Shown: piece after piece, positions 9,598-23,898 of the stretch
How positions within the stretch are numbered: the first letter of the stretch is position 1
How the letters are laid out: each line of letters starts with the position of its first letter
Assembly: GCA_017405765.1 (NCBI GenBank)
Contig: JAFQZS010000051.1
Coordinates: 1 to 59,599 of the forward strand
DNA length: 59,599 nucleotides
From: Clostridia bacterium
Lineage (GTDB): Bacteria; Bacillota; Clostridia; Oscillospirales; RGIG577
Direction: 5' to 3'
Translations under genes and position numbers: made by a program
Notes under the pieces: generated by a model
Database searches by the model: none
Told to the model about the DNA's origin: nothing
What the model saw: only the letters and a program-made list of their open reading frames with translations

Positions 9598-10791
9598 TCA
9601 CGCTGTCAATCGCTTCATTTCCGCCCTCGCGGAGTCAAACGAAGCGTGTGCGTAGTAGTTCAGCGTCATGGTGATGTTCGCGTGTCCCATGATGTACTGC
9701 AGGGCTTTGGGATTGATACCCGCATTGGCTAAATTGGTGCAAAAGGTGTGCCGCAGGACATGGGCTGAAAACATCTTCGGCAAAGGCGCTTCGTGACACT
9801 TATTGTACTTCTTCGCAAGATTGAGAAGCGTCATGGCGTAGTTTGATGCTGTCTTGGGGTAGCCGTCCCGCTTCAGAAACAGGAAATCGGTATAGCCTTC
9901 AATGATGATCGGATTTGCACCTTTGCGATTGTCCCGCACCCGCAGAAACGCCTGATAGACCTTCTCGCTCATGTGGATCTGACGTATGCCGCTTTTGGTC
10001 TTGGGGGTCGAGATGTAGTAGCCCTTTTCCTTGCAGCGCAGAAGCTGATGGTCTACATGGATTTTCCGTTCCTCAAAGTCCACGTCAGCAATCGTCAGTC
10101 CGCACAGCTCGGAAATGCGAAGCCCTGTTCCCAGCAGAATCACGATCTCGTCATAGTATTTGCAGTAGACGCTGTCGCTCTGCACAAACGCTAACAGGCT
10201 TTCCTCCTGCTCCGGGGTAAGAGGTTCCTTCGGCTCCGTGTCGTCCTCCAATACATCGGTGATTGGGAAGTCAAACGGATTTTTACGCACACAGTCGTTT
10301 TGTATCGCTGAATAGAATGCAGCGTTCAGAGATCGCTTGTCGTTGCGGATGGTGCTGAACGCAACGCCCTTTTCCTTCATTCTGAGCGCCCACTCTTTCG
10401 CGTCTGACATTTTTACGCTGTCGATGGGGCAACTTCCGATTGGGTCCTCTTTCAGCATACGCATGAGTCGGCTGCGGCTGCGGGTGGTATTGTATTTCAC
10501 ATTCCCGCGGTGGCGTATCTGCTGTGCGTAAAGCTCGCAGACGGTCATCTTCTTGCCGAGGGTATCTATTCCGTCGTCGATATCCCGCCGTATCTCCTGC
10601 TCCTTTTCCCTTAGAGAAATATCCTCCCGCTTTCCTGCGGGCGTCTTATCCGTAGGTACAAGCTTCCATGCGTAAACGAACTGCGACTTGCCGAAGGCGT
10701 CCACATATTTGTAAGCATATCTTCCGTCTTTTCTCTGGCTCTCTCCTGACCGCAAAACACGATTTTTGCTGTCTCGTCTCTTTTCTGACAT
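9598..10791 (-). CDS. int: Tn916-family tyrosine recombinase (integrase)
   Basis: 397 aa, close to Tn916 Int in length and in recognisable segments. An N-terminal arm-binding domain (about 1-65, SGESQRKDGRYAYKYVD) is followed by a core-binding SAM-like domain (about 85-180) and a catalytic domain. Visible catalytic residues are Arg225 (GTGLRISEL), Lys264 (TPKTKSG), His344-x-x-Arg347 (HVLRH), His370 (MGHAN) and Tyr379/380 (LNYYAH). It should excise and integrate the island about 9.5-24.0 kb. It reads toward the left end with GGAG before ATG. Isoleucine codons are mostly ATC/ATT, unlike the ATA-rich neighbours outside the island, which fits transfer. Confidence 0.96.
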   Translation of the reverse strand: MSEKRRDSKNRVLRSGESQRKDGRYAYKYVDAFGKSQFVYAWKLVPTDKTPAGKREDISLREKEQEIRRDIDDGIDTLGKKMTVCELYAQQIRHRGNVKYNTTRSRSRLMRMLKEDPIGSCPIDSVKMSDAKEWALRMKEKGVAFSTIRNDKRSLNAAFYSAIQNDCVRKNPFDFPITDVLEDDTEPKEPLTPEQEESLLAFVQSDSVYCKYYDEIVILLGTGLRISELCGLTIADVDFEERKIHVDHQLLRCKEKGYYISTPKTKSGIRQIHMSEKVYQAFLRVRDNRKGANPIIIEGYTDFLFLKRDGYPKTASNYAMTLLNLAKKYNKCHEAPLPKMFSAHVLRHTFCTNLANAGINPKALQYIMGHANITMTLNYYAHASFDSARAEMKRLTA

Positions 10792-10821
10792 TTTATAATG
10801 CTCCTTTCCTTAAGACGGAAA

Positions 10822-10864
10822 GAGCCCTGATATGCCGGTTGCCATTATAGCACATACAGGGCTC
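10822..10864 (-). promoter_or_regulatory. int promoter flanked by inverted half-sites
   Basis: The minus-strand TATAAT (10844-10849) upstream of int lies between GAGCCCTG (10822-10829) and its inverted copy CAGGGCTC (10857-10864). The -35 region is weak (TGCAAT-like). The symmetry could be a repressor operator or an RNA hairpin that controls integrase expression; this is inference. Confidence 0.5.
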
Positions 10865-10880
10865 AATTGCACTGTTTTTC

Positions 10881-11090
10881 TTAAATAGCGTCCAGACTGT
10901 CAATCACCTTTTCAAACTGCTTGCGCTTGATTTGAATGCGGTTGCCGTTCATAATGACCCAGCCTGCGGCGGGATTTTCCTCTGCAAGTCTCCGCAGCTT
11001 GTTTTCGCCTATGCGGAAATAGCGGGACGCCTCCTCAATGGTGAGCGTATATTTTTCCCAGATGGGAACATCGGTCTTATTCAAAATCAT
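10881..11090 (-). CDS. xis: Tn916-type excisionase Xis
   Basis: 69 aa, winged-helix MerR/excisionase-like. [20 protein letters not shown] and the C-terminal [14 protein letters not shown] closely match Tn916 Xis as I know it. ATG at 11090 has GGAGG six bases upstream, inside the end of the ParB-like gene (14-nt overlap). A longer upstream frame exists but is just the other frame of that gene. It bends DNA at the element ends to favour excision by Int. Confidence 0.93.
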
Positions 11091-11997
11091 CTCCTCCCTC
11101 CAATTTGAGAATATATTGTTTCGGTTTCTGCATGACTTCAATGACCTTCGCCTTGTAGTCCGGCTTTTCCAACAGACCGGGGAAATTGTCAAAGAGAACG
11201 TCGCAGCATTCAATCATATTCTCCGCCACATAGCGCAGACTTACCATCGCTGAATCCTCGTCGGCACGTTTGGGTGCTTTCATATCCTCGTAGCTTTTGT
11301 CGATTGCCGCATAAGCCTGTTTCCATCGCTTCGTATTATCGGCTTTGGGCTTCTTTTCCGGGATTGCCCTGAGCTGTTCCGCTTTTTCCCTGCGCTCCTC
11401 CGGGGATGCACGGGCGACAGCCGCCACATCGGTTTCGCGAGGCTTAAACTTTCCAAGGAGCAGGTCGTTCTTAATGCCAGGAAGCACTTCTTCGGCGGCG
11501 TCAACTCCCTGAGCATACCAATCCGCTCGCATCACATAGCTCTCACTTGTATTAGTTTCCTCCGCTATTTTTGTTCGCGTACCATGAGCCCTGTGGTCTG
11601 GTTCATTTTGAACCAGACCACTTTCGCCCAATAAAGTGTGCTGATTTCCGTTAAAATCAAGTATGCTTTTCTCGGCAGCATATCGCTCGCCTATGAGATA
11701 TTTCTTCTGCTGGGGCGTGAGGTTTCGCCGTCCGAGCTGGTTCTTGCAAATCCATGAGAGCGCTTCGTATTTATTGTTGAACGGTTTTTCATGGATGCGG
11801 AACTCGATGCCCGGATGATCCAGTGCGATGCGGTAGCGGTTATGACCGTCCACAATCGTGTTGTTCCACACGATGATAGGTGTCAGAATAAGCCCTTCCT
11901 CCAGGATGTTTTCTTCGAGCTGCGAAAGCTCGTCCTCGGTCAAAGGCGGGCACTTCGCCTCAAACTCCGGATCAATTACCAAAATGCGCTTCATCAT
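11077..11997 (-). CDS. ParB/Spo0J-like nuclease-domain protein
   Basis: 306 aa from ATG 11997 (GGAGGA four bases upstream; a second ATG follows at 11994). The N-terminal ParB-like domain spans about residues 10-90, with [20 protein letters not shown] and the signature [10 protein letters not shown], then an HTH-like stretch ([19 protein letters not shown], and [18 protein letters not shown] near 150). The C-terminal third is charged and unrecognised. Family members in mobile elements act in partition or transcription control. It overlaps xis, so the two are probably co-transcribed from somewhere in the repeat region 12.0-13.0 kb. Confidence 0.85.
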
Positions 11998-12097
11998 GAT
12001 TCCTCCGTTTCTTTTTGGGTATATCAGTTGTTTTGTGATTTCCAGTTTTGCTGTGATGCTTTCGCGTCGAGATTGTTTTCTTCCGCGTCGAGATTGT

Positions 12098-12960
12098 CCT
12101 TTCACCCTACAACGGACATTTTTACGCCGAATGTCAGGTATCGCCTGAAAAAGAGTTTGCTTTTTGCTGACGGCTGCCAGGGATAAAAACGATTCCGGAA
12201 GGTTACGAATACTGAGTTCATTTCGTGTTCTCCTGTTTTGTTGTGTCGCTTCCGCGGTTAAATTGTCCTCCCACTTTTCAATGGACATTTTTTCGAGCTT
12301 ATTCAACCGTCGACAAAATGGATTTTTGCTTTTTTGATAGTCCATGACGTAATGCTGCTCCGTTTTTTTCCGAATCCTCGGCAACGCTGCCCGCAGAAAA
12401 CTCAAAATGGTGTGCTGTGTCCGGATACCGGGGCTTTCGGATGAGCTGGCGATTACCGGGGCAAAAAATCAATTCCGCCGCAACGAAGACTGAGTTCATT
12501 TCCTGATCTCCTGCTTAGCTGTGACACTCTGCAAAGACTAAATTTTCGTATCCACTTGCGGCGAAATTGTCCTCTCACCCTACAACGGACATTTTTTTGA
12601 GCTTTTTAAACCATCCGCATAAATTTTTTTTGCTTTTTCGATAGGCCATGACGTTATGCCGTTCCGATTTTTCCCGAATCCTCGGCGACGCTGCCTGCGG
12701 AAAATGTAAAACGGTACGCTTTGTCCGGATATACCGGGGCTTTCGGACGAGCTGGCGATTGCTCGGGCAAAAAGCCAATTCCGGAAGATGCAGAAGGCTG
12801 AGTTTATATTGTGTTCCTCCCACTTTTCAATGGACATTTTTCTGCCGAATGTCAGGTATCGTCAGAAATATTTTTTTGATAGTCTATGGCGTTGTGAAGT
12901 TCCGAGATTCTTCTCCCACTTTTCAATGGACATTTCGGAAAGCTTTTTTACCCATTGCCA
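12098..12960 (-). repeat. Five-copy degenerate repeat array upstream of the ParB-like gene
   Basis: A core reading AAATGTCC(A/G)TTG...GTG(A/G)GAGG on the minus strand recurs at 12098-12123, 12267-12293, 12571-12598, 12816-12841 and 12913-12935. Copies 1 and 3 share CACCCTACAACGGACATTTT (plus strand); 2, 4 and 5 share CCCACTTTTCAATGGACATT. Longer homology follows: copies 1 and 4 are followed by GCCGAATGTCAGGTATCG, and the units at about 12300-12500 and 12605-12790 are alignable along most of their length. Small frames begin ATGAACTCAG after SD-like sites, but homologous units use different frames, so I do not call them genes. Confidence 0.8.
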
Positions 12961-13480: not shown

Positions 13481-15043
13481 ATGGCAGATATAAAAAAAGA
13501 ACAGGACGCCCTGTTCAGTACGATATATAAAATGGCCACCGATCTGGTACACGCAGGTCATGTCTCGGAGTGGGATTTCAAATCCTATGTGTTTGTAACG
13601 ATGTTTTACCGCTACATATCCGAGAATCTTACTGCGTACATCAATGCCGGTGAGCGCGCCGCCGGCGATGCGGATTTTGATTATGCCAAGCTGTCTGATA
13701 CGGACGCCGAGGGTGCGCGCGAGGGGCTTATTCAGGAAAAAGGCTTTTTCATCCTTCCCTCTGAGCTTTTCGGAAATGTGCTGAGAAACGCAAGAAATAA
13801 TGAAAATCTCAACGAAACGATAGAAGGTGTATTCCGTCATATTGAAGAATCTGCAAAAGGCAGCGATTCGGAAAGCAGCTTCTCCGGTCTGTTTGATGAT
13901 TTTGATGTCAACAGCAAATCCATCGGCGAGACCGTAGCAAAAAGGAACGAGGTGCTTGTTGACCTTCTCGAAGGCGTAAACCGGATGCCGCTGTACAGCT
14001 CCGAAGGTCTCAATGCCGATCTGTTCGGAGACGCTTATGAATATCTCATGGGCATGTATGCGGCAAACGCAGGCAAAAAGGGCGGTCAGTATTTCACGCC
14101 TGCGGACGTTTCTGAGCTTCTTGCGCGTCTCGGAACAATCGGCAAAACGGACGTGAACAAGGTATATGATCCCGCCTGCGGTTCGGGGTCTCTATTGCTC
14201 AAGGCCGAGCGCGTTCTCGGCAAGGGGCACATCCGTCAGGGCTTTTTCGGACAGGAGATTGACCTTACGACATATAACCTGTGCCGCATCAATATGTTTC
14301 TGCACAATATAGAATTTGACAAGTTCAGCATTGTCCGCGAGGATACGCTTATGGCTCCCCAACACTGGGATGACGAGCCGTTTGACCTTATCGTCTGCAA
14401 TCCGCCGTTCTCCAGACCGTGGAAAGCGTCAAGCAATCCCGTTCTGATCAACGATCCGCGATTCGCGCCTGCCGGTGTTTTGGCTCCCGATTCCAAGGGG
14501 GACTTGGCATTCGTTATGCACTGCCTGTCATGGCTTTCGGCAGACGGCGCGGCTGCAATCGTATGCTTCCCCGGCATCATGTATCGCGGAGGAGCGGAAC
14601 AGAAAATCCGAAAGTATCTGATCGATAACAACTTCGTGGACGCTGTGATCCAACTCCCGGCGAACCTGTTCCTTAACGTGACCATTTCCGTTGATATCAT
14701 GGTTCTGCGGAAGAACAAGAAGGGCAATCGGGTATTGTTTGTGGATGCCTCCGGCGAATGCGTTAAGGTCACGAAGAATAACAGGCTTTCCGATGACAAT
14801 ATTGCCCGTATCGTGAGCGCGGTGGCGAATCATAGCGAGATCAAACATTTCTCTCATCTGGCGAGCTATGACGAAGTCGCGGAGAACGGCTATAACCTTT
14901 CCGTTTCCACCTATGTGGAGGCGGAGGATACTCGCGAGAAAATCGACATCAAAAAACTGAATGCCGAGATTGAGGAGATCGTCGCACGTGAGGCGACCCT
15001 CCGGGAAGAAATAAATCGTATTATTATGGAGATTGAGATATGA
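13481..15043 (+). CDS. hsdM: Type I restriction-modification methyltransferase subunit HsdM
   Basis: 520 aa. N-terminal HsdM_N helical domain (about 1-150, beginning KKEQDALFSTIYKMATDL), then the N6-adenine methyltransferase domain with SAM motif YDPACGSGSLLLKAE (about residue 229) and catalytic motif NPPF (about 307). With HsdS it methylates adenine in the split recognition site. I chose ATG 13481, with GGAGG about 11 bases upstream in the end of xre; a longer frame upstream is only the alternate frame of xre. All catalytic motifs are intact. It overlaps the next gene by ATGA. Confidence 0.97.
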   Translation: MADIKKEQDALFSTIYKMATDLVHAGHVSEWDFKSYVFVTMFYRYISENLTAYINAGERAAGDADFDYAKLSDTDAEGAREGLIQEKGFFILPSELFGNVLRNARNNENLNETIEGVFRHIEESAKGSDSESSFSGLFDDFDVNSKSIGETVAKRNEVLVDLLEGVNRMPLYSSEGLNADLFGDAYEYLMGMYAANAGKKGGQYFTPADVSELLARLGTIGKTDVNKVYDPACGSGSLLLKAERVLGKGHIRQGFFGQEIDLTTYNLCRINMFLHNIEFDKFSIVREDTLMAPQHWDDEPFDLIVCNPPFSRPWKASSNPVLINDPRFAPAGVLAPDSKGDLAFVMHCLSWLSADGAAAIVCFPGIMYRGGAEQKIRKYLIDNNFVDAVIQLPANLFLNVTISVDIMVLRKNKKGNRVLFVDASGECVKVTKNNRLSDDNIARIVSAVANHSEIKHFSHLASYDEVAENGYNLSVSTYVEAEDTREKIDIKKLNAEIEEIVAREATLREEINRIIMEIEI

Positions 15044-15777
15044 GTTGGGGCAGAGTCTTTAAAAGTCAAGATTATGGACGTCCAACATACAAGCACAAAG
15101 ACCTGCCTGTTTATATTACTGATGAGTTTGATTTCTTCCGCTGTGTCGAATTCAATGACGGCTTATATAAAAAAACAGCATCTGAATTGTTTGCTGGGAA
15201 CCTACGCATGTGTAACGGACGATATTCTTTCTTATTTCCCGGTATGAAGATATCATATTGGGCTGATAGTCCTCAGACCGCGAGAGCTGAAATTAAAAAA
15301 CATGGTGCAGGCAACAATATATTGACCTTTTGGGCTTACGATGACGGAACCAGTACATTTCCGACGTTGCCGACACAAGATCCTCTTATCATTGTTGATG
15401 GACGGAAGTGCGGTGTGCAAGATTTGATAGACAAGGCCGACGCACAAGTTCCTTTAACCGAAAGAGAAAAAAGCTTGTTAGAGCAAATACTATCCACAGA
15501 ACCAGACTGTTTGGCTTTTGACTCCCATGCGATAAATGGCGGAGAGAATTTCATCTTTTTTGAAAAGGGCTTCAAAAAGCTGTCTTTGCGGCAGTTAAGG
15601 CTTCGCTTTGGGCGAAAGGACGGAGGAAGTCACAGTCGTATAGTATGTGCGGATTCATGTGATTACACCCCATTCATAGAGGCGTATGGTAAGTTCTTTT
15701 TACCAAAGGCAAGGCTTGGAATGGATAATAATTACCTTGAGTCTGATGAATATAGGATTCGGAAGAAAAATCTGTGA
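15040..15777 (+). CDS. Uncharacterised protein with possible RES-like domain, embedded in the hsd operon
   Basis: 245 aa, no signal or membrane segment. I do not firmly recognise it. Three blocks resemble the RES (Arg-Glu-Ser) fold of NAD-degrading or ADP-ribosylating toxins: NGRYSFLFPG (Arg61), SYWADSPQTARAEI (Glu84), and CLAFDSHAINGGENFIFF (Ser162). Spacing and order fit the family, but the similarity is by eye. It overlaps hsdM by ATGA and ends inside the hsdS leader, so it is co-translated with the RM genes. It could be an abortive-infection effector triggered when the RM complex is compromised, a regulator of restriction, or something else. Possible false positive for RES: N-terminal half has no familiar domain. 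Confidence 0.75.
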   Translation: MSWGRVFKSQDYGRPTYKHKDLPVYITDEFDFFRCVEFNDGLYKKTASELFAGNLRMCNGRYSFLFPGMKISYWADSPQTARAEIKKHGAGNNILTFWAYDDGTSTFPTLPTQDPLIIVDGRKCGVQDLIDKADAQVPLTEREKSLLEQILSTEPDCLAFDSHAINGGENFIFFEKGFKKLSLRQLRLRFGRKDGGSHSRIVCADSCDYTPFIEAYGKFFLPKARLGMDNNYLESDEYRIRKKNL

Positions 15778-15809: not shown

Positions 15810-17663
15810 ATGAATAGATTGGGAGAACTTATAAAAGAATACTGCACTAATGGCGTTGAATATAAGCGTTTAGGTGAAATCGGCCCTGTTTGTATGTGTA
15901 AAAGGATTTTGAAATCACAAACCAACAGTGAAGGCGGTATACCGTTCTATAAAATTGGGACATTTGGCGGAGTTGCAGATTCATATATCTCTGAAGAGCT
16001 ATTTAACGAATACAAAAGTAAGTATTCATATCCGAAGGCTGGAGAAGTATTGATATCAGCCGCTGGTACAATAGGAAGAAGCGTCATTTTTAACGGTGAG
16101 TCTTCTTATTTTCAAGACTCAAATATTGTATGGGTTTCAAATGACGAAACACAAGTTCTAAATAAGTATCTTTTCTATTGCTATCAATTGTCCCCTTGGA
16201 GTATTTCATCCGGTGGGACTATTGCAAGGTTGTATAATGACAATATTTTGAAAGCAAAGATCCCTGTCCCTCCCATAGAGGTGCAGCGTGAAATTGTCCG
16301 TATCCTGGACAATTTCACGGAGCTTACAGCGGAGCTTACAGCGGAGCTTACAGCGGAGCTTACAGCGGAGCTTACAGCGCGGAAGAAACAGTATGAATAC
16401 TATAGGGATGCGTTGCTGGATGTGCGCAAGGAAATCCCTGTCGTTAAGCTCAAGGAGATCGCCACAGAGATGTTCCGTGGAGCTGGCATCAAGCGCGAGG
16501 AAGTGACCGAGGAAGGTATCCCTTGCGTCCGTTACGGCGAGATATATACGACCTACAACACATGGTTCGATACTTGCGTATCCCATACGAAGCTTGAATA
16601 TGTGCCGTCTCCTAAGTATTTTGAGTATGGTGATATTCTGTTTGCTATCACCGGGGAAAGCGTGGAGGATATTGCAAAATCCGTCGCATATGTAGGGCAT
16701 GACCGCTGCCTTGCAGGTGGTGACATTGTGGTGATGAAGCACAAGCAGAACCCGCGCTATCTTGCCCATGTCCTCTCTACCACTTATGCGAGAGAGCAGA
16801 AAAGCAAGGGCAAGGTCAAAAGCAAGGTGGTTCATTCCAATGTGCCGTCTATTGAAAATATAGAGATACCGTTGCCACCTCTGGATGTGCAGGAGCGATA
16901 TGCGAATGTGCTGGATAGTTTTGAGGCTATATGTAATGACCTCAACATCGGTCTCCCGGCAGAAATCAGCGCAAGGCAAAAACAGTACGAATATTACAGA
17001 GATTTGCTATTGACATTCGCCGAGACCGGAAACACAATCGTTAGACAGACAGACAGACAGGCTGAAATAGCGCTTTTGCAGTATGTGTTTGGGTATGCGG
17101 AGGTGCAGTTGCAGGATGTGGCTGAATATAGAAGTCAGAGAATCGATGCCGCTGAAATTGACGAGAACTCCTACATTGGGGTAGATAATCTTCTTCCAGA
17201 TAAAGGCGGTCGCAAGCCTTCAGAATACGTTCCAATTGAAGGTCGGCTTATCCGATTCGAGGCAAACGATGTTTTGATCGGAAACATCAGGCCATACTTA
17301 AAGAAAATATGGCTTTCTGACTGTTCAGGCGGCACGAATGGAGACGTCCTCACCGTAGGTATCCATGATGATGTGGAAGTATATCCACGGTACCTGTATT
17401 ATGTCCTTTCCTCCGAAAGGTTCTTTGCTTATGACAACCAATATGCAAAAGGAGCAAAGATGCCGCGTGGGAACAAAGATGCTGTGATGCAATATTGTTT
17501 TGCATTACCATCTTACTCCGAGCAAATAAGAATTGCCGGATTATTAGACCGTTTTGATGCCCTATGCAATGACATCACTAAGGGGCTTCCCGCCGAGATA
17601 GAGGCTCGTAGACAGCAGTACGAGTATTACAGAGATAAGCTGCTGACATTCAAAGAAGTATAA
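15810..17663 (+). CDS. hsdS: Type I specificity subunit HsdS with three target-recognition domains
   Basis: 617 aa from ATG 15810 (AGGAGG six bases upstream); typical HsdS is about 400-450 aa with two TRDs. Order: TRD1 (about 10-160), conserved helix 1 (EVQREIVRILDNFTELTA...RKKQYEYYRD), TRD2 (about 210-355), helix 2 (LDVQERYANVLDSF...ARQKQYEYYRDLLLTF), TRD3 (about 420-560), helix 3 (SEQIRIAGLLDRFDAL...ARRQQYEYYRDKLLTF). Helix 1 contains five ELTA repeats (residues 171-190). A (AGAC)4AG tract at 17043-17060 joins helix 2 to TRD3; one unit lost or gained gives a stop after 418 or 419 residues, a normal two-TRD subunit. TRD1 is AT-richer than the rest, as is usual for exchanged TRDs. Confidence 0.94.
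   Translation: MNRLGELIKEYCTNGVEYKRLGEIGPVCMCKRILKSQTNSEGGIPFYKIGTFGGVADSYISEELFNEYKSKYSYPKAGEVLISAAGTIGRSVIFNGESSYFQDSNIVWVSNDETQVLNKYLFYCYQLSPWSISSGGTIARLYNDNILKAKIPVPPIEVQREIVRILDNFTELTAELTAELTAELTAELTARKKQYEYYRDALLDVRKEIPVVKLKEIATEMFRGAGIKREEVTEEGIPCVRYGEIYTTYNTWFDTCVSHTKLEYVPSPKYFEYGDILFAITGESVEDIAKSVAYVGHDRCLAGGDIVVMKHKQNPRYLAHVLSTTYAREQKSKGKVKSKVVHSNVPSIENIEIPLPPLDVQERYANVLDSFEAICNDLNIGLPAEISARQKQYEYYRDLLLTFAETGNTIVRQTDRQAEIALLQYVFGYAEVQLQDVAEYRSQRIDAAEIDENSYIGVDNLLPDKGGRKPSEYVPIEGRLIRFEANDVLIGNIRPYLKKIWLSDCSGGTNGDVLTVGIHDDVEVYPRYLYYVLSSERFFAYDNQYAKGAKMPRGNKDAVMQYCFALPSYSEQIRIAGLLDRFDALCNDITKGLPAEIEARRQQYEYYRDKLLTFKEV
16320..16379 (+). repeat. Five tandem 12-bp GAGCTTACAGCG repeats in hsdS
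   Basis: Five perfect units encode ELTA x5 in the spacer helix between TRD1 and TRD2. In EcoR124I/EcoR124II, a change from two to three TAEL units alters the length of the non-specific spacer in the recognised site, so unit-number change here should do the same while keeping frame. Confidence 0.97.
17043..17060 (+). repeat. (AGAC)4AG tetranucleotide tract in hsdS
   Basis: 18 bp of AGAC repeats encode RQTDRQ between helix 2 and TRD3. Removing one unit gives V-R-Q-T-D-R-L-K-stop; adding one gives V-R-Q-T-D-R-Q-T-G-stop. Only changes in multiples of three units keep TRD3 in frame. Confidence 0.97.
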
Positions 17664-17681: not shown

Positions 17682-20600
17682 TTGCCGTACTTCAACATTG
17701 TGGCTCAGACCACGGAAAATACAGTCGTTACGGAATACGAACCCGTAAAGGCCCGCTCTGACAGCTATCAGAGCGAGGCGGAGCTTGAACGGGAGTTCAT
17801 TCGTATGCTCACGGAGCAGGGCTATGAATACCTGTCGATCCATACGGAAGCGGAGCTGCTTGCCAATCTACGCACACAGCTTGAAAAGTTGAACGGCTAT
17901 ACCTTCACCGATTCCGAGTGGAGCCGTTTCCTCAAGGAAAGCGTTGCCAATCCCAATGAGCATATTGTGGAAAAGACCCGGAAGATACAGGAGGATTTCG
18001 TACAGGTGCTCCGCCGCGACGACGGCAGCAGCAAGAATATCCTGCTGATTGACAAGAAGAACGTGCATAATAATTTCCTGCAAGTCATCAATCAGTATTC
18101 TGTCGGGCAGGATGTCGGGGCGAAGCACGATAACCGCTATGATGTTACCGTTCTCGTCAACGGTCTGCCGCTTGTGCATATCGAGCTGAAACGGCGCGGC
18201 GTTGCTATCCGGGAGGCGTTCAATCAGATCAACCGCTATCAGCGTGATTCTTTCTAGGCAGGATGCGGACTGTTCGAGTATGTGCAAATCTTCGTCATCA
18301 GCAACGGCACGAATACGAAGTATTATTCCAACAGCACCCGCTTCAATGCTATAAAGGATGCGAATTCCTCCAAAGCAAAAAAGGAGAAGACTTCCAATAG
18401 CTTTGAGTTCACATCCTATTGGGCAGACAGCAACAATGTGGTGATCCCTGATCTGATTGATTTTACACGGACGTTTTTCGCACGGCACACCATTCTGAAT
18501 GTGCTGACGAAGTACTGTATTTTCACATCCGAGAATATGCTCATGGTCATGCGTCCGTATCAGATCACGGCAACGGAACGCATCCTCAACCGCATTGAGA
18601 TCGCCACGAACTACAAGAAGTATGGCAGCGTGGCGGGAGGCGGCTATATCTGGCATACCACCGGCTCCGGCAAGACGCTGACCTCCTTCAAGACGGCGCG
18701 GCTGGCTTCCAATCTGCCCTATATAGACAAGGTGCTTTTCGTGGTTGACCGCAAAGATTTGGACTATCAGACCATGAAGGAATATGACCGCTTTGAGAAA
18801 GGCGCTGCCAACAGTAATACTTCTACCGCAATCCTAAAGCGGCAGCTTGAAGACCCGAATGCACATATCATTATCACAACCATTCAGAAGCTGTCCACCT
18901 TCGTAAAAAAGAATCCTGGACATGAAGTTTATCACAAGCACGTTGTTATTATCTTTGACGAATGCCACCGCAGCCAGTTCGGTGATATGCATACGGCAAT
19001 CGTAAAGAATTTTAAGAAATATCATCTGTTCGGCTTTACCGGGACGCCGATTTTTGCGGCGAATGCCGGAGCGGTTAGGAACACGCAGTTTTTCACCACT
19101 GAGCAGACCTTCGGCGATCAATTGCACACCTATACCATCGTGGACGCCATCAATGATAAAAACGTTCTGCCGTTCCGCGTGGATTACATCAAGACGATGG
19201 ATACCGACCCGGATATTGACGATAAGAACGTCTGGGATATCGACCGAGAGAAAGCGTTCATGGCACCGAAGCGCATCGAACTTGTCACACGGTACATTCT
19301 GGAGCATTTTGACCAAAAGACATATCGCGGGGATAAGACTTACATTTTCAATACACTGACGAACATTTCGGAGGTAGCGTCTGCCGCCCGTGGCGCTGTT
19401 GAGGAGATAAAGCAGAAACAACGCATCAGCGGATTCAACAGCATTTTTTGCGTTGCCTCCGTTCCGATGGCAAGATTATACTACGAGGAATTCAAAAAGC
19501 AGATGGCTGCCGACCCTGCGCGTTCGCTCCGTATAGCAACTATTTACAGTTATGGTGCGAACGAGGAAGAGGCTGACGGCATCCTTGATGAAGAGAACTC
19601 TGAGGACACATCCGCTTTGGATCAGTCCTCTCGTGATTTTCTTGAAGCCTGCATCTGTGATTACAACGGGATGTTTCATACCAATTATTCTACGGACGGA
19701 GACCGGTTCCAGAATTACTATAAAGATGTATCACTCCGTATGAAGAACAAGGAGCTTGATCTGCTGATTGTGGTCAATATGTTCCTCACGGGTTTTGATG
19801 CCACCACGCTGAATACGCTATGGGTAGATAAGAATCTGAAAATGCACGGTCTGATACAGGCGTTCAGCCGCACAAATCGTATCCTAAACAGCATAAAAAC
19901 TTTCGGCAATATCATCTGTTTTCGCAATTTGCAAAAACGTGTTGATGATGCCATTTCGCTGTTCGGCGACAAAAATGCGTCCGGCATCGTACTGATGCAG
20001 ACATTCAAGGATTACTACTACGGTTTCATCGGCCCCGACGACAAGCATCATCCCGGCTATGTAGATATGATAGATGAGCTGACGGACAGATTTCCGCTCA
20101 CCGTGCCGCAGATCATTGGAGAGCAGAACCAGAAGGAGTTTATCGCACTGTTCGGCTCGATCCTGCGTATGCGAAACCTTCTCGTCTCCTTCGATGATTT
20201 TGCCGGGAAGGAGATTCTCACCGAGCGCGATCTGCAGGATTACCTCGGTCGCTATCAGGATCTGCGCGACGAATGGCGTGGTCGCAAACCCGGCGGCGAT
20301 AAAGAGGATATCACGGACGATGTAATCTTTGAGGTGGAGCTGATCCGCCAGATTGAGATTAATATCGATTACATCCTTCTGCTCGTGAAAAAGTTCCATG
20401 ACAGCCATTGCCAGGACAAAGAAGTGCTGATTACCATCCGTAAGGCTGTGGACGCATCGCCGGAGTTGCGCAGCAAGAAGGCACTCATCGAAACATTCAT
20501 TGCCGGAATTAACGATGTGGATGACGTTATGTTGGAGTGGCGCACGTTCGTTGCCGAGGAACGGGAGAAGCAACTCGTCCAAATCATTACGGAGGAGAAT

Positions 20601-20813
20601 CTGAAAGAGGAAGAGACACGCAAGTTCATGGAGGATTCTTTCCGCAACGGCGAGATAAAAACGACCGGTACAGATATTGAGAAGATTCTGCCTCCCGTCT
20701 CCCGCTTCGGAGGCGGCAACCGTACCCAAAAGAAGCAGACAGTCATCGATAAGCTGAAAGTTTTCTTCGAGCGGTTCTTCGGCATCGGATCGTCGGAGTT
20801 TTCAAAGCAATAA
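17682..20813 (+). pseudogene. hsdR: Type I restriction subunit HsdR, interrupted by one in-frame amber codon
   Basis: A single frame from TTG 17682 (AAGGAGG about 7 bases upstream) to 20813 encodes a complete HsdR except for TAG at 18255-18257, codon 192. The stop follows INRYQRDSF and precedes AGCGLFEYVQIFV; the missing residue is expected to be Trp, so TGG-to-TAG explains it. Before the stop is the nuclease domain (YDVTVLVNGLPLVHIELKRRG, then FNQINRY). After it are the SF2 helicase motifs: TTGSGKTLTSF, FDECHRSQFGDM, GFTGTPIF and AFSRTNRI. The helicase part (18282-20813, 843 aa) is otherwise intact. Likely no restriction, unless the stop is suppressed or is a sequence error. Confidence 0.9.
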
Positions 20814-20937: not shown

Positions 20938-23898
20938 ATGTATGAGAAAGAACTGCAAAGAATATTAAACGCTTCACAGAATAATGCACTTACGTTTTTC
21001 GTTGGTGCAGGCGTATCAAAACTCTCCGGAGCACCGACGTGGAAAGAGTTGATTGACGCAATTAGTGTCAAACTGGAACAACTACCCCAAAAAAAATATT
21101 CTTCCGATGAATCTCTTCAAATTCCGCAGATGTTTTATTATTCTTTAGGGGAGAACAAGGCAGAGTACTATAAGTTCGTCAAGGAACAGTTGTATTCTTC
21201 TTCATTGTTGCCAAATACCATCCATCGGGAAATGCTGAACCTAAATCCGGTATCCTTTATTACTACCAACTATGACACGCTACTGGAAGATGCGGCGATC
21301 CAGTATTGTCAAAGCTTTAAGGTAGTCTCACGAGATGAAGACGTTCCAACCGTTTTTGGAGATAGGTTTATACTAAAACTACACGGGGATTTTAAGCATA
21401 ATAATTTTGTGCTGAAGGAAGAGGACTACCTCAACTACAGCGAAAACTTCAAATTGATTGAAACCCTGGTAAAATCTATTTTTTCCACCAACACTGTTGT
21501 TTTTATAGGATACAGCCTTAATGATTATAATATTAAACTGATTCTTAACTGGACGAAAACACTACTTAAGGGTAGCTTCCGAGAGCCTATCTTCCTTTAT
21601 GTTGGTAGCTCGGCCCTTACAGATACTGAACTTATTTATCATCAGTCAAAGGGACTCGCAGTTATCGAGTTGAATAAACTCTTGCCTCCAACTGACGACT
21701 ACTTGAATCGCTACAATGCGATCTTTGCTGCGTTAAAGAATCAATCTAAACTGTCATTAGACGGAAAATCAGAGGATGAAGCGTTTGAGATTCTATACAA
21801 TTTGCTTCGACCCTTAAATCGATTAAATGCCCTTCGAATCGGAGATATTTCAAAAAGACTGTATCCCTACGTCAGAATAAGGGACACTGGAGTTATAAGC
21901 TATCCTCAAAATGATAGCCTGATATTAAAAAAGTTCTTTGCAATAAATCAATTATCATTGGCTGAACAAAATGCACTTTCAAAAGATGTATTGGCTAAAT
22001 ATCACTGCATTTTAGATGTCTTCCGAAAGGCGAGAGTATTAGAGGTAGAAGATAACCACAAGCACAGGCAGTTTATTACTGATGGAGTGCCTTTTGCTGA
22101 CAGGAATTGCATTCTATTCGATTATACACACATGCACACCTTTTCAGCAAAGACATACAAGTCAATCGAAAGCAATTATAGAAAGGCTTTTTATCTGTCC
22201 CGGCTGAGAAGATATGACGAAGCATTTTTCCTTTTTTCAGAAGTTACAAAGCAAGCGTTTAAGGCAGAGAACTATCTGTTGTACTATCTTGCTGAATCTA
22301 ACTGTATTAGCTTACGCAAAGTAATAAAGAATGTTAATACATGGTATCGCTGTTATGATATAGATGCAGTTGAAGCCTTATCACCAAATGATTCGGAGAT
22401 TGAAAATCTGTTTAGGCATTTGCCAGTGGAATTCAGGAGTACATATGACAACTTAACAGATATTCATAGTCCGGATTTGCTTTATAAATACGCTTATGAG
22501 TCGTTTGTTGATGGGCAAAAGCTGCAAAAGGCGATAGAATCCGGTTCAACAGAATTTGGATTAACAAGCAGCGGTAAGGCGGTTTGTCGAGTAAACGATT
22601 ATTTGCATTTCTTGCTTGGAAATGGAATTGTAGCAGATGTATTCTCCGAGTATAGAATTGCAGTGAAGAATCTGATGTCCCTGTTAGTATACAAGTACTC
22701 CACACAGGGAAAGAAAGTATTGCATGAGCGGCTATTTCCTTTTATTGAAGGGAATGACATTTATTTCGATGAAATCGATTTTCACTGTTTCGTAGAGTAT
22801 TTTGATGCAAAGGAAATAGTAGAGTTGCTGGACAAATATCACATTGAAACAATCGAGTTTCAGAATATGTCTTTGGTTGAGACCGCTGTAAACAACTTAT
22901 TGGATTACTACAGTTATGCGGTCAAATCTACAAAAAACAACATTGATGTTATTGGGTTGCAAACGCAAATTAAGAATTGCCTCGCATTACTCAGATATGT
23001 CAGCGTTTCGCAGGGCTTGGTTGATAAGATATGCGGCTTCATCCTAACACAAGAATTCAGGGAAATATTGATAAATGATAAGGTTCTTTTCCTTGATCGC
23101 CAACTGGCGAAAAGGAAAATGTATAGCGAAACAACAAGGAAAATCGTAGAGGATACATTGATTTCTTATTTGGATAAGAAGATTTCTGCACTGAAAAAGG
23201 GCGAGAAGTTTGAGTTGCCCTCAACAAGCACGGGTATCAATTATTTCAATCTTGTTCATTACATCTCTGCACCAGAGGAAAAATACTATTCACGAAGACT
23301 GTCTGTGAGAATCTCGCAGATTATTAATAATAATCTGTCCCAGATGTATGATCAGATAACCCAGCACTACTGCGGATATGTCTCAAAGAATCAGCAGAAA
23401 AAGCTTATCACATGGGCTAACAAACTAATACAAACGAATTTTAGCTTTAATTTATTTACAATGCTTATTCAATGTGATGCGCGTATTAGTAAAGTAGTTA
23501 ATATTCAACTGAAGGAATTCCTTAAGCAAAGAATAGATGCGGCTAAAAAAACAAATAACAATGGTGTAGTCGTATATCCAGCTAGACAACCATACGAAGA
23601 ATTAGATCGGGTCGGTTATTGGTGTTTGCTCAATATCCTCAAAGCGAAGGATTTCCAGGAATTTCTTGGTAATAGTGCGGTGTTTGACTTCTATTGTGAA
23701 TACACTAAATTCGATTTCGATAGGTTTGACGTTTCATGGCTATTACATCTTTTCCCGCATACATTGGAACAGATTGCAAAAAATGGAAAGGTCAAAGAAC
23801 ATATACGAGTTGCTATTGCAACTTCATTGAAAGATAAAGGAATAGCAATATCAGACCACCAACGACTTCAAGACATTCTCGTCAAACATTTTTGCTGA
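20938..23898 (+). CDS. SIR2-domain anti-phage protein, DSR2-like (probable NADase)
   Basis: 986 aa. Residues 1-250 are a SIR2 domain: FFVGAGVSKLSGAP (21-33), TTNYDTL (109-115), KLHGD (147-151), FIGYSLND (189-196). Putative catalytic Asn111 and His149 are 38 residues apart, the same as DSR2 Asn133 and His171 as I recall. No zinc Cys quartet, so not a protein deacetylase. The remaining 730 residues are helical and unrecognised; in DSR-type proteins this part senses phage proteins. It follows hsdR by 124 bp with its own GAGGGGAT site. Base composition is clearly more AT-rich than hsdM/hsdR, suggesting separate acquisition. Other SIR2 Abi families remain possible. Confidence 0.82.
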   Translation: MYEKELQRILNASQNNALTFFVGAGVSKLSGAPTWKELIDAISVKLEQLPQKKYSSDESLQIPQMFYYSLGENKAEYYKFVKEQLYSSSLLPNTIHREMLNLNPVSFITTNYDTLLEDAAIQYCQSFKVVSRDEDVPTVFGDRFILKLHGDFKHNNFVLKEEDYLNYSENFKLIETLVKSIFSTNTVVFIGYSLNDYNIKLILNWTKTLLKGSFREPIFLYVGSSALTDTELIYHQSKGLAVIELNKLLPPTDDYLNRYNAIFAALKNQSKLSLDGKSEDEAFEILYNLLRPLNRLNALRIGDISKRLYPYVRIRDTGVISYPQNDSLILKKFFAINQLSLAEQNALSKDVLAKYHCILDVFRKARVLEVEDNHKHRQFITDGVPFADRNCILFDYTHMHTFSAKTYKSIESNYRKAFYLSRLRRYDEAFFLFSEVTKQAFKAENYLLYYLAESNCISLRKVIKNVNTWYRCYDIDAVEALSPNDSEIENLFRHLPVEFRSTYDNLTDIHSPDLLYKYAYESFVDGQKLQKAIESGSTEFGLTSSGKAVCRVNDYLHFLLGNGIVADVFSEYRIAVKNLMSLLVYKYSTQGKKVLHERLFPFIEGNDIYFDEIDFHCFVEYFDAKEIVELLDKYHIETIEFQNMSLVETAVNNLLDYYSYAVKSTKNNIDVIGLQTQIKNCLALLRYVSVSQGLVDKICGFILTQEFREILINDKVLFLDRQLAKRKMYSETTRKIVEDTLISYLDKKISALKKGEKFELPSTSTGINYFNLVHYISAPEEKYYSRRLSVRISQIINNNLSQMYDQITQHYCGYVSKNQQKKLITWANKLIQTNFSFNLFTMLIQCDARISKVVNIQLKEFLKQRIDAAKKTNNNGVVVYPARQPYEELDRVGYWCLLNILKAKDFQEFLGNSAVFDFYCEYTKFDFDRFDVSWLLHLFPHTLEQIAKNGKVKEHIRVAIATSLKDKGIAISDHQRLQDILVKHFC

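Follow-up and report, generated by a model that had tools for sequence, protein, structure and literature searches.

The hsdS gene considered here raises the question of what a perfect tetranucleotide repeat is doing in the middle of an open reading frame. The gene is located at 15810..17663 of the window, the term used here for the entire 59,599-nucleotide stretch of Clostridia bacterium DNA that was analyzed, and the features of the restriction-modification locus described here lie on the plus strand. Beginning with the ATG at position 15810, upstream of which is a GGAGG, the gene in its present state encodes 617 residues, and the closest solved relative of the protein is EcoR124II HsdS (7bst). 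Three Pfam Methylase_S matches delineate three complete target-recognition domain (TRD) modules in a single frame, an arrangement also found in three-TRD HsdS proteins. These are TRD1 (15852..16364), TRD2 (16437..16970), and TRD3 (17097..17606), the last of which is in frame only in the present state. No mutual similarity among the three was detected at E ≤ 1e-8. Conserved helix 2, ICNDLNIGLPAEI...QYEYYRDLLLTFAETGNTI, is of the middle-module type and extends over 16911..17039, where it served as both query and match of a helix search. The same search placed conserved helix 3, of the ordinary C-terminal type, at 17544..17660. The repeat, (AGAC)4AG (AGACAGACAGACAGACAG), is positioned between helix 2 and TRD3 at 17043..17060 and comprises 4.5 perfect units. 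Its occurrence by chance is excluded, because dinucleotide-preserving shuffles of the window gave a mean of only 0.02 matches at three or fewer mismatches. Three consecutive AGAC units also occur elsewhere in the genome, in C5 and C50, at no Methylase_S match; these were treated as chance occurrences rather than as further switches.

The consequences of a change in tract length can be read directly from the frames. Loss of one unit yields a protein of 418 residues that ends in VRQTDRLK at a TAG (17068-17070), and gain of one unit yields 419 residues ending in VRQTDRQTG at a TGA (17063-17065), such that the two alternative stops together occupy only 17063..17070. When three units are gained or lost, the long frame returns, with 621 or 613 residues, respectively. 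The rule of two TRDs that applies to the type IC family is thereby broken in the present frame and obeyed in either slipped frame. The first-pass annotation of this DNA had proposed that the tract joins helix 2 to a complete third TRD, and that slippage would toggle the architecture of the subunit rather than destroy it. Its three lengths and the position of the tract are all correct, and the three Methylase_S matches bear out the proposed junction. The architecture and its frames are on firm ground at the level of the sequence, and the description of TRD3 as a frame-switched domain is well supported.

A second repeat, absent from the first-pass annotation, lies within conserved helix 1. It consists of a 12-bp unit encoding TAEL (16318..16379; 5.2 copies at 100% according to TRF), and helix 1 would act as the spacer ruler. 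The lengths of helix 1 form a ladder of 17, 21, 25, 29, and 33 residues; the window is the longest at 33, the relatives examined spanning 17 to 29, and its TAEL array is one unit longer than in any of them. EcoR124I and EcoR124II, whose HsdM, HsdR, and HsdS belong to the same families as those of the window (PMC3874165; PDB 7bst), likewise carry TAEL repeats in helix 1, and there the number of repeats sets the spacer of the recognition site (PMC3874165). They have two TRDs and two or three TAEL units, whereas in the window the 12-bp unit is present 5.2 times and a frame-switched extra TRD is added. The in-frame TAEL repeat of the window may set the spacer of its own recognition site. Since the TAEL unit is a multiple of three, a change in its number only extends helix 1. 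In contrast, the units of the tract, here and in the relatives described below, are never a multiple of three, and therefore the tract would exist to shift the frame. We regard this as the best argument that the sequence provides.

The surrounding genes assign the locus to a family. The hsdM gene (13481..15043) encodes the N6-adenine methyltransferase subunit of a type I system, with matches to Pfam N6_Mtase and HsdM_N and to NCBIfam TIGR00497 (hsdM, 631 bits). The hsdR gene is present in two parts, a 5' part with an HSDR_N match (17682..18257) that ends at an in-frame TAG (18255-18257), and a 3' part (18282..20813) that encodes the helicase motor and an EcoR124-type C-terminus (SWI2_SNF2 and EcoR124_C). 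Given that a TIGR00497 HsdM and an EcoR124-type HsdR adjoin hsdS, the locus is of type IC, albeit with an internal stop in HsdR, and the TAEL-type repeats of the central helix are a further type IC trait. At about 30 loci, HsdM proteins that are 62-84% identical to that of the window adjoin a tract-bearing hsdS. The TAG separates the N-terminal nuclease region of HsdR from the remainder of the protein, and in all relatives examined (∼30 loci) that position is an open codon. As a result of this interruption at most methylation can vary in the window genome, and judging from the gene sequence the system probably methylates without restricting.

Several other features of the neighborhood were noted. 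An open reading frame of 245 residues (15040..15777) lies between hsdM and hsdS and was recorded as overlapping both. It has no match in Pfam, NCBIfam, or PADLOC, and copies of 73% identity occupy the equivalent site in L087/L033 and L027 only (L numbers denote loci or contigs of relatives). Directly after hsdR, a protein of 986 residues (20938-23898) has an N-terminal SIR2-like domain with ThsA/Dsr2-like scores and is likely a defense gene beside the restriction-modification locus. Upstream of hsdM, on the minus strand (9598-12405), are a tyrosine-recombinase-like frame of 397 residues and a ParB-like, plasmid-type frame of 442 residues, both recognized by motifs only; the locus may sit on an integrated element. 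Long tandem arrays with periods of 66 and 72 bp are found near the window start (315-1165).

The first-pass annotation had regarded a tract that adds a whole third TRD as unusual, and as an isolated case this did not hold. A DNA pattern consisting of the helix and (AGAC)3, scanned over 84,980 species-representative genomes, identified 27 more contigs in which the phase varied, and overall a simple repeat was found at the same junction in dozens of Clostridia-type genomes. The 27 contigs are mostly from Lachnospiraceae and other Clostridia, with two labelled Coriobacteriia, one Bacteroidales, and one Anaerolineae. In all of them the tract lies directly 3' of QYEYYRDxLLTFAETGxTI or a close variant. 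Of the matches in Fusobacterium, Escherichia coli, and Methylophaga, those opened were ordinary or IS-interrupted hsdS genes. No tract-bearing relatives were found in the phage and plasmid collections, no viral contig matched the helix-plus-tract pattern, and neither of two other genomes from the window's own family carries the hsdS gene in question. A second AGAC tract in genome G004 (C18) is not preceded by an HsdS helix and was set aside as a candidate hsdS switch. The L014 genome contains another long tract, (GACA)n, that lies outside hsdS (L093, 4475-4522); it is preceded by a hexamer resembling TTGACA and may therefore modulate a promoter.

The association of the repeat with the middle helix was also evident from a tract-blind search, in which the helix-2 protein alone was compared with about 1,480 genome slots from overlapping samples. 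Middle-module helices are characterized by the motif ICxDLxIGLPAEI, or by LLSDTxGLLPxE in a second sublineage. As classified by script, a repeat follows 27 of 29 distinct middle helices, three of which came from genomes first found by their tract, versus one of 62 "end" helices (Fisher p about 1e-19). That sole exception, L182, is truncated at the end of its contig and has the motif of a middle helix. With L182 reclassified, the repeat follows about 28 of 30 middle helices versus none of 61 genuine C-terminal helices. The script's classifier had also dropped one more middle helix, that of L141, which is followed by a heptamer repeat. The two middle helices without a repeat are those of L142, where the region is masked by N, and L102. 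In the latter (reverse complement of 843-2208), a deletion has removed TRD2 such that helix 1 is joined directly to helix 2, and the eroded tract is now a linker that contains no repeat; this locus may have escaped from switching.

Seven different units occupy the junction. AGAC is found in the window and many relatives, GAAC in L100, AG in L145, L124, and L211, and AAGC in L212, and there are three heptamers, ACGAGCA (L141), GCACGCC (L210), and GCAAGCC (L215). The units are thus 2, 4, or 7 bp in size, never a multiple of three, and contain no stop in any frame. What follows the tract was analyzed in 34 complete loci with sequence on both sides of it. One frame remains open for 184-224 codons, enough for a full TRD and helix, in all 34. 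Both other frames stop within two codons in 21 loci and within four codons in 28; at control codons taken from within these TRD3 frames, the corresponding values are 2% and 7%. Because part of the post-tract sequence is common to related loci, the effective number of observations is below 34. Several unlike sequences provide these double stops, for example GCTGAAATAG (window), TAATTAG (many other loci), and AGGATAGCTGAC (L091). The conservation of the switch, and its convergence from dissimilar units, are therefore as apparent as its structure. The idea that slippage toggles the architecture is strongly supported, for in the relatives the same junction carries varied tracts of 2.6-31 units, stops lie directly after them in both alternative frames, and TRD3 is intact when out of frame.

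Relatives differ in both state and length. Thirteen of the 34 loci are ON, with TRD3 in frame, and 21 are OFF, which is near the one in three expected for random phase. Besides the window, 12 loci are in frame after the tract, and 11 of these have two modules upstream. The OFF copies of TRD3 are still open for 184-224 codons and display no decay. L084, with 25.5 units, is OFF and L087, with 12 units, is ON, the two being 93% identical over 1396 nt. Likewise, L024 and L082 are 97.8% identical over 765 nt that abut different tracts, and L128 and L135 have 22.5 and 4.5 units between similar flanks. The expectation in the first-pass annotation that AGAC counts would vary was borne out between related species, which is the level that collections of one genome per species represent. 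Slipped-strand mispairing within a clone would account for these differences.

It could be argued that the tract is simply a hydrophilic linker produced by expansion of a microsatellite, and that the out-of-frame genomes reflect assembly errors or pseudogenes. Indeed, all of the units encode polar, stop-free peptides. Several MAG contigs were seen to end inside the tract, which indicates that long tracts do hamper assembly, and with many contigs ending in this manner tract lengths can be misassembled. The design is also present, however, in isolate genomes (L016, L022, L032, and L038), isolates with the tract being Lachnoanaerobaculum OBRC5-5, Gemmiger formicilis MCC627 with 15.5 units, Faecalibacterium An121 with 17.5 units, and Flavonifractor An306. 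Moreover, a linker would favor units that are multiples of three, and the TRD3 frames of the OFF genomes are undecayed. We consider such an origin very improbable.

The TRDs themselves are exchanged among positions 1, 2, and 3 across loci. The TRD1 type of the window occupies position 1 in L087, position 2 in L099, and position 3 in L137 and L089, and its TRD3 type is found at position 1 in L086 and L092. To judge from its sequence, TRD3 is a real TRD. This mobility would also be expected if the repeats were joints for the recombination of TRD modules between hsdS genes, with slippage playing no role, and DNA repeats mediate TRD movement in Helicobacter pylori (PMC3077401). Yet the unit sequence varies among loci, which would defeat homologous joints, and neither units that are not multiples of three nor stops in both other frames are needed for recombination, such that this explanation seems improbable. 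Nor does the third TRD appear to have been gained by duplication or recombination at flanking repeats within the same gene, given that its three TRDs do not match one another at E ≤ 1e-8 and that the joint is a simple repeat.

With respect to the window itself, 4.5 units is the shortest tract among complete AGAC loci, shared with L082 and L135, and all three are ON. Slippage at tetranucleotide repeats is slower with fewer repeat units. The window copy, having a short tract, may therefore switch rarely, and it probably either switches slowly or is all but fixed in the three-TRD ON state. A more extreme possibility, which we regard as real but doubtful, is that the tract is a relic that shrank to 4.5 units and that hsdS has since become fixed in its three-TRD form. 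Consistent with such a history are the minimum length, as in the two other ON loci, and an HsdR that is already broken; against it, both alternative stops after the tract are intact, and the repeat is without interruption.

Each component of the proposed switch has precedent. In the NgoAV system of Neisseria gonorrhoeae, the loss of one guanine changes the recognition site from GCAN8TGC to GCAN7STCA (PMC9577141). As in the window, the length of a repeat in a type IC-like hsdS fuses or separates a downstream TRD, the outcome being a changed specificity rather than a plain off-switch (PMC9577141), and the window gene, like that of NgoAV, contains within its open reading frame a repeat that is not a multiple of three and whose slippage would give alternative HsdS proteins. 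The two differ in that the poly-G of NgoAV follows TRD1 and converts one TRD to two, whereas the window tract follows the second module and converts two to three. In addition, the relatives employ tetra-, di-, or heptanucleotide units instead of poly-G. An AGAC tract after the first TRD module occurs in three complete loci (L080, L085, and L091) and in four cut contigs (L018, L019, L023, and L034). The complete loci share the one-to-two, or half-size to full-size, arrangement of NgoAV, but with AGAC. Three-TRD HsdS proteins exist in H. pylori and Mycoplasma agalactiae (PMC3077401), with three TRDs in one frame as in the window; there the number of TRDs is altered by recombination between flanking repeats, and, as far as the available text extends, no frame-switching tract at the joint of the second and third TRDs is described. 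Three-TRD subunits and repeat-driven switching are thus each known separately (PMC3077401 and PMC9577141), which tempers the first-pass view of the combination as unusual; what is surprising is the convergence of the repeats and the breadth of their distribution. Simple repeats occur in 7.9% of the hsdS genes in REBASE, according to PMC7394358. Some of the genes of the relatives may already have been counted in the REBASE survey (FASEB J 2020). The literature searched contained no account of a frame switch from two TRDs to three.

The explanation that we favor, and consider reasonably probable, is that the window carries a phase-variable type IC hsdS in which slippage of the tract toggles a third TRD, with the specificity changed or mixed as a result. 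A slipped-strand change in (AGAC)n would determine whether a complete module of TRD and helix is in frame. If it is not, translation would end a few codons past the tract and give an ordinary two-TRD HsdS, TRD1-TRD2, that recognizes one bipartite site. If it is, the product would be a three-TRD HsdS in which a flexible (QTDR)n linker carries TRD3. The linkers in the ON genes vary from 6 to 33 residues, and therefore TRD3 is tethered loosely rather than rigidly placed. TRD3, together with helix 3, would then most likely compete for incorporation into the M2S complex with TRD1 or TRD2, and methylation at TRD1-TRD3 or TRD2-TRD3 sites would either supplement or replace that at TRD1-TRD2 sites. Half-size HsdS proteins are known to dimerize, and active enzymes with new sites are obtained from EcoR124I and EcoDXXI subunits reduced to their N- or C-terminal half (PMC3874165). 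On the basis of these precedents, either of the first two helices could be a partner for helix 3, and by the same analogy the three-TRD form would assemble and change the methylated motif. That TRD3 might be translated on its own in the OFF state, beginning at an internal start, was also considered and set aside, as no conserved in-frame start codon was seen by eye when TRD3 is out of frame.

Whether the long form is functional bears on one further alternative, namely that the three-TRD protein is dead or dampening and that the tract is a plain ON/OFF switch with the two-TRD states active. The assembly of a three-TRD HsdS is at most a prediction, and the AlphaFold models are uninformative in this regard. 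The model of the 617-residue protein was poor, with a pLDDT of 66.6 and most of TRD3 below 50, as was that of TRD3 alone (pLDDT 55.9). Foldseek with the 617-residue model retrieved S subunits with TM scores of only ∼0.3, and when TRD3-type fragments were aligned, MAFFT put them on the first module instead of at the third position. Furthermore, an extra TRD would have to be pushed aside, as is thought to occur in other systems (PMC3510504). For an off-switch, however, any frameshift would do, whereas here TRD3 and helix 3 are intact and of exchangeable TRD types, and the shortest, presumably most stable, tracts in the window, L082, and L135 are all ON. A plain ON/OFF switch thus appears unlikely.

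In broader terms, there is perhaps an even chance that these genes constitute an undescribed and widespread class in gut Clostridia, in which a convergent di-, tetra-, or heptanucleotide switch adds a tethered TRD3 and the long form pairs TRD1-TRD3 or TRD2-TRD3, a single gene thereby specifying one recognition site in two of its frames and a different one, or more than one, in the remaining frame. To our knowledge, phase-variable methylation has hardly been studied in the bacteria concerned, and the switch is probably an overlooked, widespread way to change DNA methylation. The signature of ICxDLxIGLPAEI followed by a repeat that is not a multiple of three makes such genes easy to find in genomes and in long-read methylomes, and the system provides a testable case for the choice of partners by S subunits with three TRDs. 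Should the long form prove functional, a single slip would alter the methylation pattern of the whole genome, and a type I enzyme would be able to carry a spare TRD that is used on demand.
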